Assembly: GCA_017608025.1 (NCBI GenBank)
Contig: JAFCGM010000003.1
Location: forward strand, 1-64,000
Direction of reading: 5' to 3'
DNA: 64,000 bases
Origin: Candidatus Pacearchaeota archaeon
Lineage (GTDB): Archaea; Nanobdellota; Nanobdellia; UBA10117; JABICX01
Shown in pieces: positions 16,949 through 54,465 of the stretch. Every line of letters begins with the position of its first letter. The first letter of the stretch is position 1. Below the pieces are notes generated by a model. The model saw only the letters and a program-made list of their open reading frames with translations. It was not told the origin of the DNA and ran no database searches. The translations under genes were made by a program, and so were the position numbers.

Positions 16949-16991
16949 CTGCCTTTCTTTTAGAAAAAGGAAGTGCAAGTTGCCCAAAAAA
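16949..16991 (-). repeat. Palindromic repeat family copy, no host-gene duplication seen
   Basis: Reverse strand TTTTTTGGGCAACTTGCACTTCCTTTTTCTAAAAGAAAGGCAG. Confidence 0.7.
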
Positions 16992-17014: not shown

Positions 17015-17190
17015 TGGCCCGGCTGAGATTCGAACTCAGGACCTCTCGATATCTGCGAACTTTTTATTACTGATTAAACCTTGTTTTTGGGTTGGAAAAC
17101 CTTCAACTTGGTTTCTTTTGGTGAACATTTTCTTTTGAAAGAAAAGGTTCATATCAGTCGAGCGCTCTAACCAGGCTAAGCCACCGGGCC
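17015..17190 (-). tRNA. tRNA-Ile(GAU) with ~101-nt intron after position 37
   Basis: Reverse strand 5' exon GGCCCGGTGGCTTAGCCTGGTTAGAGCGCTCGACTGATA, 3' exon ATCGAGAGGTCCTGAGTTCGAATCTCAGCCGGGCCA; intron 17051-17151; 7-bp acceptor and 5-bp anticodon stems pair. Confidence 0.9.
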
Positions 17191-26013: not shown

Positions 26014-27582
26014 TTAAACTTTCTCTAGAAGTTTTCGAATCTTATCCTTACCGATTGCCAAAATAAAAGGCGCTAACCGAGGTCCGCGTTCCTTGTTTAC
26101 AATCGCAAGATAGCACGCTCTGAAAAATTCTTTTGTCTTCAAGTTATTTTTTTCAGCAATTTTGTAAAACTGCTCAAACAATTTCTTTTCATCAATCTTA
26201 TTCTTTAGAACAGCAGCTAAATCCCTGAGCGCTTGCTTTTCATTGGCATTCAAACCAGAAGCAGAAGGTTTCTTTGCAACTGCAAACTTATGCTTTTCAT
26301 CAGCATATTTTTTCATCCAGTTGGAAACGCAAACCATAATCTCCTCAAGACGCTTGCTCTTTGCAACTTTCATAAATTCAGCATACTTTTCAGCAGCTTT
26401 TTTAGGATTCTGGAAAATATTGTTAAACTCAATGCAGGTTCTTATTGCAGGTTGAATGGGCATCTTTTTTAAAGGAGTTGTGCTCATCTCATAAACTCTG
26501 GACCAGTGCTGTTGGTCTCTTTTGCTGACTTTCTCTTTTCCAAAATAAACTCTCTCAGCAAAGTAAAAGTCTTCAAACACTTTCAAATAATCATCATCAA
26601 GCGGAAGCGCAAATTCCTTGTTTGGTTTTGTTCCAGCATAAAGAAATATCATAACTTCTTTTGGGTAAACTGCCATTAAATCACGAGGAGATACAACATT
26701 TCCAGCTGAACTTGACATTTTTACACCTTGCCCTTTGAGTTTAATTTGATTGTATGCAATAAATTCAGGAGATTCAAATGGCCAGATGTCTTTAATCATT
26801 TCCTTTCCTGTATCAAATGTTCCGCCAGGCGAGAAATGGTCTTTTCCCCATGGCTCAAAAACAGTGTCATAAAACTTCCATTTCATCGGAGTTTCAACTC
26901 TCCAAAGAAGCTTAATCCAGCCCTTTTTGGAAAAGTTTAATTTGCGGGTTTTTCCATCACACTCGCAAGTGTATTTTACAGTATAATTTTTGTCATAATC
27001 AATTATTTGAGTTGTGTCTTTCTTGCAATTTTCACAATAAACACGAGCAGGCCACCACTTCTCTTCAAGAGGTGTTTCTCTGAATTTATCTAAAATTTCC
27101 CTGATTTTATCTCTGCTGTTCAGTGCTTTTTTAATTTCATCTTTGTAAACGCACTTCAAGTACTGTTCTGATTCAGAAAGATAAATTGGTTTTATGCCAA
27201 GAAGTTTCATTTCTTCCTTGAACGGCAATGCAAAATGCTCTGAATATGATTTGTGGCATTTCCATGGGTCTGGAATCCAGCAAAGAGGCATTCCAATGTA
27301 TTTTTCCCATTCCTTTGGAACATTTTTCGGAACTTTTCTGAACCTGTCAAAATCATCAAAATAGCAATAAAAATTAGTTTTTTTCTTTTTTGAACGAAGA
27401 GCAGAATCCACAAAATGAACTGTAATTGGCTCCCGAAGCTTTCCTGCATGAACAATTCCGCTAGATGATAATCCTGCACGCAAGGAATAAGATTTCTTTT
27501 TAGGGTGTTTGGCAATAATTTTATCTGCAACCTGATCTGCCCAGTATTTGCTCTCTTCCATTTTAAATAAATAATCTTTCAC
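26014..27582 (-). CDS. lysK: Lysyl-tRNA synthetase, class I
   Basis: SYSLRAGLSSSGIVHAGKLREPITV, VKMSSSAGNVVSPRDLM. Confidence 0.94.
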   Translation of the reverse strand: MKDYLFKMEESKYWADQVADKIIAKHPKKKSYSLRAGLSSSGIVHAGKLREPITVHFVDSALRSKKKKTNFYCYFDDFDRFRKVPKNVPKEWEKYIGMPLCWIPDPWKCHKSYSEHFALPFKEEMKLLGIKPIYLSESEQYLKCVYKDEIKKALNSRDKIREILDKFRETPLEEKWWPARVYCENCKKDTTQIIDYDKNYTVKYTCECDGKTRKLNFSKKGWIKLLWRVETPMKWKFYDTVFEPWGKDHFSPGGTFDTGKEMIKDIWPFESPEFIAYNQIKLKGQGVKMSSSAGNVVSPRDLMAVYPKEVMIFLYAGTKPNKEFALPLDDDYLKVFEDFYFAERVYFGKEKVSKRDQQHWSRVYEMSTTPLKKMPIQPAIRTCIEFNNIFQNPKKAAEKYAEFMKVAKSKRLEEIMVCVSNWMKKYADEKHKFAVAKKPSASGLNANEKQALRDLAAVLKNKIDEKKLFEQFYKIAEKNNLKTKEFFRACYLAIVNKERGPRLAPFILAIGKDKIRKLLEKV

Positions 27583-27599
27583 ACTTAAATAATTTATGA

Positions 27600-27640
27600 C
27601 TGCCTTTTCTTTTAAAAAGAAAATGCAAGTTGCTAAAAGA
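27600..27640 (-). repeat. Palindromic repeat family copy upstream of lysK
   Basis: Reverse strand TCTTTTAGCAACTTGCATTTTCTTTTTAAAAGAAAAGGCAG. Confidence 0.75.
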
Positions 27641-27762
27641 AACTGCTTTTAACAACAAATAAATATAAGTGGACCTCTAAAAAAGGTCCAGGTGAACATA
27701 TCCACGAGAGCAGCTCGTGAACATGAAGAGTTAATCTTTTGATTGGTATTTAAAAACTTTGT

Positions 27763-27802: not shown

Positions 27803-27847
27803 AATATTTCCACAACATTTAAAAACAAATTAGCATTATTGAAAGAT

Positions 27848-27922
27848 GGGTCGTTAGCTCAGTCTGGTTAGAGCACTGGCCTTTTAAGCCAGGTGTCGCG
27901 GGTTCAAATCCCGTACGACCCG
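27848..27922 (+). tRNA. tRNA-Lys(UUU)
   Basis: GGGTCGTTAGCTCAGTCTGGTTAGAGCACTGGCCTTTTAAGCCAGGTGTCGCGGGTTCAAATCCCGTACGACCCG; full cloverleaf, anticodon TTT. Confidence 0.96.
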
Positions 27923-27945
27923 GAGCTTTTCTCAAAGAAAAGCTC
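27923..27945. repeat. Perfect 10-bp-stem palindrome abutting tRNA-Lys 3' end
   Basis: GAGCTTTTCT-CAA-AGAAAAGCTC. Confidence 0.85.
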
Positions 27946-27990
27946 GCAAAAGATATTTCACTGCCGTTCGACAATTTTTGCTTGAAGAGC

Positions 27991-28027
27991 AAGTTTTTGG
28001 CAACTTGCCTTTTTCTGAAAAAGGCAG
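27991..28027 (+). repeat. Palindromic repeat core, type copy, followed by a tRNA-Lys tail copy
   Basis: AAGTTTTTGGCAACTTGCCTTTTTCTGAAAAAGGCAG, followed at once by ATCCCGTACGACCCG. Confidence 0.85.
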
Positions 28028-28042
28028 ATCCCGTACGACCCG
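28028..28042 (+). repeat. 15-nt duplicate of tRNA-Lys 3' end (first extra copy)
   Basis: ATCCCGTACGACCCG identical to 27908-27922. Confidence 0.9.
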
Positions 28043-28046
28043 CTCT

Positions 28047-28160
28047 CCCTTTTCTCTAGAAAAGAAAAGGTAAGTTTCCAAAAGAAACAATATTGTTCTC
28101 TTTCGAGAACATTTCTCTTGTAAGAGAAAGATAATGCGAGTATCAATCCCGTACAACTCA
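28047..28160. repeat. Second repeat unit, further hairpins and degenerate third copy of the tRNA-Lys tail
   Basis: CCCTTTTCTCTAGAAAAGAAAAGGTAAGTTTCCAAAAGAAAC, hairpins GTTCTCtttcGAGAAC and TTTCTCTTgtAAGAGAAA, then ATCCCGTACAACTCA. Confidence 0.65.
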
Positions 28161-36040: not shown

Positions 36041-36090
36041 CTTTATCCAAAACTCTTATTTCCATTTTATCCTATCACGATTTTCATATC

Positions 36091-36130: not shown

Positions 36131-37959
36131 ATCACGATTTTCATATCGTCTGCGAGGATTTTCTTCAGAGATTCAATTGTTTTCTTTGTCAGAATTGTTG
36201 GCTTTTCAGCAAACTTTGTAACTTCTTTATCCATCTCTGTAAGAGAAGAAGTTTTAGGGTTTTTTAATTCGCCAGATTTTGTAATAGCATATTTTCGAAT
36301 CTTGCTCTTTCCTTTTTCTTCATTTATTACAAAAGCTTTTTCACCAAGAAGCCAAAGTGTAGCGTTTTTCTTTCCTCGTTCATATTCAACTTTTACTTTG
36401 TATTTTTCAATCTTGCTTCCTTTTTCTGCGCGAATCATATTATAAATGTCGCGAATCATTTGGCTTTGCTCAAATCTAAGTGAAGCAATTTGCTGCCTTG
36501 TTGACTTTTTTGTCTTTTTCAGGTCTTGAATTTTTTTAAGCAAATCAAGATATCTTAAAGGGGCTAATTTCCTTTCAACAAGGTTTTTTCTGAACAAAGA
36601 GATAAGGTCTTTTTTGCAGACTTTTGAAATTCCAAGCATTGAAAGTGCTGCGCATGATTCTTCAAAGGATTTTTCATAAAGGTCGTCAATTGCTTCCTTT
36701 ACTTTTTCATCTTCAACTGTGTCCATGAGCTTGTCAAGCCTTTCAAGGTATTTTTCAATAAGAGGAAACATTTCCTGAACAGTTGAAATATCAACTTCCT
36801 TGATTTTTCCATATTCAATGTTCTTTCTAAGGTCGAGAATTTGCTTCCAAATCTTAAGATATTTTTCTTCTAAAAGTCCTTTTTTTACAAAAGCTTGCTC
36901 AAGCTGTGCTGCAACTTCCTTTGGCGCTCCAGGCGGAATTCCTGCCATCATTAAAGCACCTTGCGTTGGAGTGCATGTAGCCCAAAAAAAATCTTCCATT
37001 GCAATTTCCTTAAGCTTTGACTTTGTTCTCTCTAAAAGCTGTTTTCCTGATTTTGTATACTGGTCAACTGCTTCTGGCGAAGGAGTAATTTTTCCTTTTT
37101 TCAAGAGAAGCTTCCAAGGTGCGAACATTCCCCTGTCATAAAGAGGAATTCCGTCTCTTAAAAATGTAAAAATAACTGGGTGAGCGTTTTTGATTGAGTT
37201 CCACATGTCAGTTAAAACATAAACTTGTACATTAAGTTCGTTTTTAATTCCAGTTACTGCAGATGCTTCATGGGCAAACTGGTAAATCATTGACATTAGC
37301 CGTTGCTTTAGTTCTGAAGAAGTTAGCCTTGTAACATCAGTGTCATCAATAACAACATAAGTGTCAATGTCAGAGCCCTCAACAGCTGTTCCCCGAATCA
37401 AGGAACCGCCAATAACATAAGAAACAACATATTTCTCGAATTTACGCAGAACTTTCATTTTGTGGACTTCTGCAAGCTTCAATGCTGAAAGCATTCCTGT
37501 GTCATAAACAATATGACCCATTGCAATCATGCTAAGAATTTCATATTTTGACTTAAGACACATGTCCCAAAGCTCGTCAAGCAAAAGAAGATTAACTTCT
37601 TCGTTTTTCAAAGTTGAAGAAGCAATTTTCTGGACTTCTTTGTCAAATTCTGCTTTTTCCTTTAGCATGTCTGCGATATTGTCTGCTTTCTTTGATTTGA
37701 GAAAAACTATAATTTCAGGTTTTTGCTCAGATTTTTGGTTTGGCTGGGGCTGAGGTGGTGTGACAACAATTCCGAGAAGCTTTTTCTTGAATTTTGATTT
37801 TAATTTTTTCTGAAAATCTTTTTTTGCCTTTTTGGCAAGAGAATTCATTTGATTTTTTATTTTATCAGTTTTGTTTTTCTGATTTTCAAGTGTTGAAAGG
37901 TTTTTCTCAAAGCCCTTTTTTATTTCCTCAATTTCTTTTTCAGATAATTGCTTTGCCAT
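36124..37959 (-). CDS. Pol-beta-fold nucleotidyltransferase with helical C-terminal regions
   Basis: VIGGSLIRGTAVEGSDIDTYVVIDDTDV (GSx~10DxD-type). Confidence 0.8.
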   Translation of the reverse strand: MAKQLSEKEIEEIKKGFEKNLSTLENQKNKTDKIKNQMNSLAKKAKKDFQKKLKSKFKKKLLGIVVTPPQPQPNQKSEQKPEIIVFLKSKKADNIADMLKEKAEFDKEVQKIASSTLKNEEVNLLLLDELWDMCLKSKYEILSMIAMGHIVYDTGMLSALKLAEVHKMKVLRKFEKYVVSYVIGGSLIRGTAVEGSDIDTYVVIDDTDVTRLTSSELKQRLMSMIYQFAHEASAVTGIKNELNVQVYVLTDMWNSIKNAHPVIFTFLRDGIPLYDRGMFAPWKLLLKKGKITPSPEAVDQYTKSGKQLLERTKSKLKEIAMEDFFWATCTPTQGALMMAGIPPGAPKEVAAQLEQAFVKKGLLEEKYLKIWKQILDLRKNIEYGKIKEVDISTVQEMFPLIEKYLERLDKLMDTVEDEKVKEAIDDLYEKSFEESCAALSMLGISKVCKKDLISLFRKNLVERKLAPLRYLDLLKKIQDLKKTKKSTRQQIASLRFEQSQMIRDIYNMIRAEKGSKIEKYKVKVEYERGKKNATLWLLGEKAFVINEEKGKSKIRKYAITKSGELKNPKTSSLTEMDKEVTKFAEKPTILTKKTIESLKKILADDMKIVIG

Positions 37960-52249: not shown

Positions 52250-52300
52250 TTACTTTTTGTAACAGATTTCATATATGTCTAGATTTTTCAGATCGTGCTC
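52250..52300 (-). repeat. Silently diverged duplicate of the ychF 3' end (17 codons including stop)
   Basis: Encodes EHDLKNLDIYEICYKK*; authentic ychF end (52505-52555) encodes DHELKNLDIYEICYKK*; 12 nt differences by hand count. Confidence 0.92.
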
Positions 52301-52335
52301 TGCCTTTTTCAAAAAAAGGCAAGTTGCCAAAAACG
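52300..52335 (-). repeat. Palindromic repeat core adjoining the ychF tail copy
   Basis: Reverse strand CGTTTTTGGCAACTTGCCTTTTTTTGAAAAAGGCAG, near-identical to the tRNA-Lys copy at 27991-28027. Confidence 0.88.
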
Positions 52336-54326: not shown

Positions 54327-54465
54327 GCGAAAGAAAGAAAACTAAAATGGTAAGGATAGCAATAATTGACAAGGAGAAGTTCAACAGCCTTTCTTTAAAA
54401 AAGAAACGCTGGCGAAAGAAAGAAAACTAAAATGGTAAGGATAGCAATAATTGACAAGGAGAAGT
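54327..54465 (+). repeat. Direct duplication of ABCE1 gene start (54327-54380 and 54412-54465) flanking a palindromic core
   Basis: 54-bp copies GCGAAAGAAAGAAAACTAAAATGGTAAGGATAGCAATAATTGACAAGGAGAAGT; insert TCAACAGCCTTTCTTTAAAAAAGAAACGCTG. Confidence 0.95.

Follow-up and report, generated by a model that had tools for sequence, protein, structure and literature searches.

The window, that is the whole stretch of 64,000 nucleotides analysed here, contains an intact tRNA-Lys(TTT) gene at 27848-27922 of the forward strand (Rfam RF00005, 72.4 bits), whose limits are placed by ARAGORN and Rfam at 27847/8-27922/3. The 3' end of this gene, ATCCCGTACGACCCG (27908-27922, +), which starts in the T-loop and runs to the discriminator base, is the first, functional copy of a duplicated block: the same 15-mer recurs at 28028-28042 (+), with 15 matches out of 15, and again, in a decayed form, at 28146-28160 (+), where 3 mismatches are present (12/15) and the bases just upstream, GCGAGTATC, resemble the 5' side of a T-arm. 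Allowing up to 3 mismatches, these three sites are the sole matches in the window, 0.04 being expected by chance. An earlier note, made from the sequence alone, had described a triplicated tRNA-Lys tail with spacings of about 120 and 118 bp; both statements are borne out, the measured distances being 120 and then 118 bp.

The two intervals consist of hairpins. Insert 1 (27923-28027, +; 105 bp) carries the hairpin GAGCTTTTCTCAAAGAAAAGCTC at its left end and, abutting the second tail at its right end, a dispersed hairpin, GGCAACTTGCCTTTTTCTGAAAAAGGCAG (+), found with a 93% match at window positions 52294-52334 and in numerous copies throughout the genome. Insert 2 (28043-28145, +; 103 bp) contains the dispersed hairpin CTCTCCCTTTTCTCTAGAAAAGAAAAGGTAAGTTTCCAAAAGAAA, also located at C8:56046, C8:30428 and C8:94713, along with two more hairpins. 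When folded as DNA, both inserts are more stable than their shuffled versions, none of which is equally good (z = -3.65 for insert 1 and -5.01 for insert 2), confirming the description of the intervals as packed with hairpins. The units also proved to be, as claimed, small and non-coding: the only open reading frames listed over the inserts are long minus-strand frames with a TTG start, which are unlikely to be genes.

A further hairpin of the insert 2 family (27600-27643, +; 82% identity to 28045-28088) lies between tRNA-Lys and the lysyl-tRNA synthetase gene lysS (26014-27582, -), which is divergent from the tRNA gene and separated from it by hairpins. The closest named relatives of the synthetase share 53% (Nanoarchaeota) and 42% (Pacearchaeota) identity with it, and a scan with its sequence gave just two distant loci.

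The window is part of a nanoarchaeal MAG of the DPANN group (here G000; 700,509 bp in 34 contigs, 91.5% complete), in which hairpins of this kind are dispersed. A typical unit has the form CTGCCCTTTCTTT-loop-AAAGAAAGTGCAAGTTGCCCAAAGAAA, and the flanking sequences differ wholly immediately outside it, i.e. its ends are sharp. Many hairpin types share a common architecture, made of an outer stem, one mismatch, a pyrimidine/purine inner stem, a 3-nt loop and a purine tail; the units, of about 35-60 bp, are frequently joined into inserts of 80-240 bp. A descriptor based on the hairpin gave 157 matches, each locus being counted on both strands, as opposed to 14 after shuffling. In hairpins picked by inner stem and tail only, leaving the outer stem unused, 91% of the outer-stem cells are paired, against 26% when the alignment is slid by one; 8 different fully paired outer stems were found, and 30 out of 40 hairpins have a C.C mismatch. 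Such a level of pairing, maintained over 8 stem types, indicates compensatory conservation of the folded strand. General statistics on the inner stem gave too much noise once the tail motif was dropped.

Of the 76 oriented hairpins, 21 are found no more than 250 bp to the 3' side of a tRNA gene, against an expectation of 1.0; most repeat clusters of the genome are located away from tRNAs. Members of the hairpin family are also found within tRNA introns. The minus-strand tRNA-Ile(GAT) gene, at window positions 17015-17190, has a 101-nt intron containing one of them, with a further unit on its 3' side (16949-16991); in the tRNA-Asn intron (C25:72104-72302) one hairpin type is seemingly inserted in the loop of another. 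Single hairpin types may also form four-unit tandem arrays, as at C28:80817-80945 and C26:55307-55475, with units of 37 and 34 bp, respectively.

The tail duplication at tRNA-Lys(TTT) has counterparts throughout the genome. Tail copies at other tRNA genes, which the earlier note had put forward as a check, are indeed present: at 17 of the 37 tRNA genes found, the gene's own 3' tail recurs within 450 bp downstream, the corresponding figure for upstream copies being 1 out of 37, and that one a neighbouring tRNA. In all 18 copies measured the first base of the block falls within the T-loop, 16-23 nt ahead of the annotated end of the gene, and its last base varies in position, from -2 to +37 bp relative to the tRNA end. 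The T-loop holds one of the two junctions in every case, and the second is at or past the 3' end of the tRNA, so that the duplicated tail keeps the tRNA intact. The blocks measure 15-53 bp, of which 15-22 nt are shared with the tRNA, and recur with periods of 71-408 bp around inserts of 47-387 bp. Setting aside matches to neighbouring tRNAs and between elements, every duplication around tRNA 3' ends begins in the T-loop, and none starts elsewhere in the gene body or just downstream, within a search in which duplications shorter than about 14 bp would escape detection.

Exact searches with the 16-mers from the tails returned copies only beside their own gene, the exception being two Arg isoacceptors with a common tail. 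Many tail copies are decayed; at the two-copy loci, Lys-TTT and Leu-TAA, the near copy is intact and the far one decayed. Some copies continue into sequence resembling a T-stem in which the loop is altered, and these extensions do not fit a simple duplication. Two mirror-image cases were also noticed, at C21:18104/18184 (C21:18104-18198) and C25:74757/74833 (C25:74757-74854, corresponding to L064 10757-10854), where the 5' end of a tRNA, up to the D-loop, is duplicated upstream around other hairpins.

Similar duplications are found away from tRNA genes. After removal of redundancy, 43 places not overlapping annotated tRNAs, about one of which is the tail of Leu-AAG with a block narrowly missing the annotated gene, feature hairpins of the same kinds, with direct repeats of 16-68 bp, made of unrelated host DNA, on either side. 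Within the window, a 17-bp repeat (36074-36090 and 36131-36147) flanks a 40-bp hairpin insert, and a 54-bp repeat, including a gene start, flanks a hairpin at 54327-54380 and 54412-54465; repeats of 27 and 66 bp bracket hairpins at C8:30401/30491 and C28:34896/35020, respectively. Given that hairpins may thus lie between direct repeats of unrelated host DNA, the tRNA tails behave like target duplications. Among gapped noncoding local duplications, 46 out of 63 enclose a hairpin or a dispersed repeat, compared to 22% of matched random noncoding segments, and gap-less tandem duplications are rare (4 out of 67): duplication is therefore coupled to hairpin insertion. A general targeting of hairpin loops was considered and rejected, the edges of the non-tRNA duplications showing no excess of unpaired bases over other positions (rank about 0.53). 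As these edges display neither a loop preference nor the T-loop motif, the targeting of T-loops may be a process distinct from general dispersal.

These results bear on the resemblance to attachment sites, pointed out by the earlier note. Its suggestion of an integration-type duplication of the tRNA 3' end stands. A reading as a classical attachment site is not supported: the same hairpin families are shared by about 13 different tRNAs, at each of which the tail is that tRNA's own, and the presence of similar hairpins between direct repeats of non-tRNA DNA further disfavours it. For the same reasons it seems improbable that the inserts are shrunken genomic islands, each bringing a copy of the tRNA tail through the action of a tyrosine recombinase, since a separate capture of every tail would be required. 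Islands do leave a complete gene and a displaced fragment, and the T loop is one of the three integrase crossover sites recognised by Islander (PMC4383910), features matched here by the intact tRNA, the displaced 3' fragment and the T-loop edge; tyrosine recombinases are also encoded in G000, namely XerA and one integrase on the plasmid- or provirus-like contig C24. However, inserts of 47-387 bp lacking an integrase are not islands and do not constitute a conventional attachment site; those of 47-240 bp carry no genes.

The distribution among relatives is uneven. In two genomes of the same family no tail copies were found, at 0 of 30 tRNAs (G002) and 0 of 20 (G001), and about 100 tRNAs from regions of other relatives provided one or two weak cases. 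In contrast, G018, a genome of another family within the same class, has tail copies at 9 of its 37 tRNAs, with blocks which all start 17-18 nt from the gene end; this second case is independent support for entry at the T-loop. The G018 inserts are mostly made of one hairpin, GGTGCAGC..AAAGGTGCGGTGG, in a single orientation, located directly after the tRNA 3' ends with a T-run at its start, and form at one locus a two-unit array with a period of 60 bp. At L277 527-800, in the same genome, two 60-bp units of tail and hairpin come after a tRNA; the T-stem sequence of their tails is that of tRNA-Lys, unlike that of the gene itself, and may preserve in fossil form what the gene once looked like. 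The density of local duplications around hairpins is about five times as high in G000 as in G018, and smaller samples from other relatives showed none.

This patchy distribution, specific to certain lineages, is what mobile DNA would be expected to show, and a conserved RNA would not. Absence from the same-family tRNAs rules out a noncoding RNA conserved throughout the clade, and agrees with insertion rather than with a triplication conserved in relatives, the outcome on which the earlier note had staked its refutation. It also speaks against the proposal that T-run, hairpin and tail copy form a functional downstream RNA, serving tRNA termination, processing or regulation. The uniform placement and orientation of the G018 element, T-run first, would suit such a role, as would the conserved hairpin structure in G000, but the decay of many tail copies and the location of most G000 repeat clusters away from tRNAs would not, and we consider the proposal quite unlikely.

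On the basis of one MAG and one further genome, we regard the tails as probable target duplications, left by small REP- or MITE-like mobile hairpins entering tRNA genes at the T-loop and leaving the tRNA intact. According to this scheme, the T-loop would be the point of entry of the element into the tRNA gene; the sequence between this point and a second one, variable and further downstream, would be copied, so that the insert would end up between two copies. Repeated events would produce arrays in which tails and hairpins alternate (tail-hairpin-tail-hairpin-tail), the distal tails being the oldest and undergoing decay. The least certain step is the copying itself, which might be carried out by a recombinase acting in trans and recognising the TTCRAATC of the T-loop, or might result from template switching during replication. 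The spread of duplication lengths, much wider than a normal transposase would give, counts against this scheme.

We would tentatively envisage, as one form of the first alternative, an undescribed DPANN insertion system, whose enzyme would recognise the tRNA T-loop and repeatedly insert hairpin DNA together with a copied tail, building polarised arrays at many tRNAs. The chief alternative to a dedicated enzyme is template switching at replication: forks would stall at the tRNA or at a hairpin, and the nascent strand would switch to a distant hairpin copy and return upstream, generating an insertion and a variable tandem duplication with no dedicated machinery. Duplication lengths ranging from 15 to 68 bp, the combination of several hairpin types within one insert and junctions falling inside common hairpin sequence, as at the Ser locus (C21:18185), are all consistent with such a process, as is the lack of Cas1, Y1 transposase and reverse transcriptase matches in G000. 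Sharp element ends and the scarcity of gap-less duplications are not readily accounted for in this way, nor is a T-loop junction constant across tRNAs in two families; furthermore, by eye, in both G000 and G018, the hairpin adjoining the second tail has in most cases one orientation, the strand with the purine.purine mismatch. On balance, template switching without dedicated machinery seems rather unlikely.

Four mobility families, Cas1, Y1 transposase, reverse transcriptase and tyrosine integrase, were searched for in G000. No match was obtained to Cas1 (PF01867), to Y1 transposase (PF01797, RAYT/TnpA-REP), a single instance of which is present in G018, or to reverse transcriptase families, and these three were set aside as movers in this 91.5% complete MAG. 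Two further candidates were rejected: a build-up of palindromes caused by the loss of Rad50, since a 758-aa frame of G000 has a weak match, under the cut-off, to the Rad50 zinc hook, and a viral origin, three exact hairpin patterns being unmatched in viral contigs.

Integration of the Cas1/casposase or CRISPR-like type at tRNA 3' ends deserves a separate comparison. The Aciduliprofundum boonei casposase reads TCAAATC, the T-loop motif, beside its target at the 3' end of tRNA-Pro and produces 14-15 bp duplications (PMC6614799); targeting of tRNA 3' ends, motif and target duplication are therefore shared with casposons, and the decay of distal copies recalls polarised arrays. Target sites of euryarchaeal casposons, however, overlap the tRNA by only 4-7 nt (PMC4046053), as opposed to 15-22 nt within variable blocks of 15-53 bp in G000. 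No casposon was found, and membership in this group fails since G000 has no Cas1; the Cas1 gene of G018 has a CRISPR array as a neighbour, about 0.6 kb away. Such an origin is most improbable. The array (L161 16686-17437; G018:C8:18037-18834) has a Cas12a-like repeat ending in AATTTCTACTATTGTAGAT.

Genes for tRNAs are classic docking sites of mobile DNA, but in the known cases the element is kilobases long and carries its own integrase. In the present 0.7 Mb genome nearly half of the tRNA genes have had their T-loop used by hairpins of about 50 bp that contain no gene, and T-loops have been used in this way in another family too, with no harm to the tRNA. The arrays are a natural record of insertion, in which decaying target copies act as dates, and offer a concrete route to the enzyme or replication process spreading palindromic repeats in archaea. 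No published description of the tail-hairpin pattern was found in a literature search mostly confined to sources other than subscription journals and preprints. Searches for tRNA fragments such as those of Islander, which rejects candidates below 2 kb (PMC4383910), would miss this class of hairpins.

Among known systems, the GC-rich palindromes and double-hairpin elements of fungal mitochondria, cited in PMC7218506, are putatively mobile and in some cases flank tRNA genes; they are organelle systems, unlike the present one, and tail duplication was not found in the part of that text which was searched. There is also similarity to the REP, BIME and REPIN families, as these too are hairpins, short and dispersed, in which a mismatch is conserved; they are arranged singly or in inverted pairs, chiefly outside genes. 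REPs combine hairpin, mismatch and pairing with GTAG/CGTC tags, and are associated with TnpA-REP/RAYT. The G000 hairpins differ in the sequence of their tail, in the lack of a Y1 transposase match in the genome, and in their long variable target duplications and tRNA T-loop hot spot. A 2025 survey of REPs in bacteria and archaea makes no mention of DPANN (PMC12306157). With respect to MITEs, no parental transposon was found among the Cas1, Y1, reverse transcriptase and tyrosine-integrase families searched, and duplications, 15-68 bp long here, are short and fixed both in MITEs and in Rickettsia palindromic elements. The G000 hairpins resemble these two groups in being small, non-coding, structured mobile units, found also in RNA genes, and share with MITEs the combination of defined ends and target duplication, in the form of sharp ends and direct repeats.
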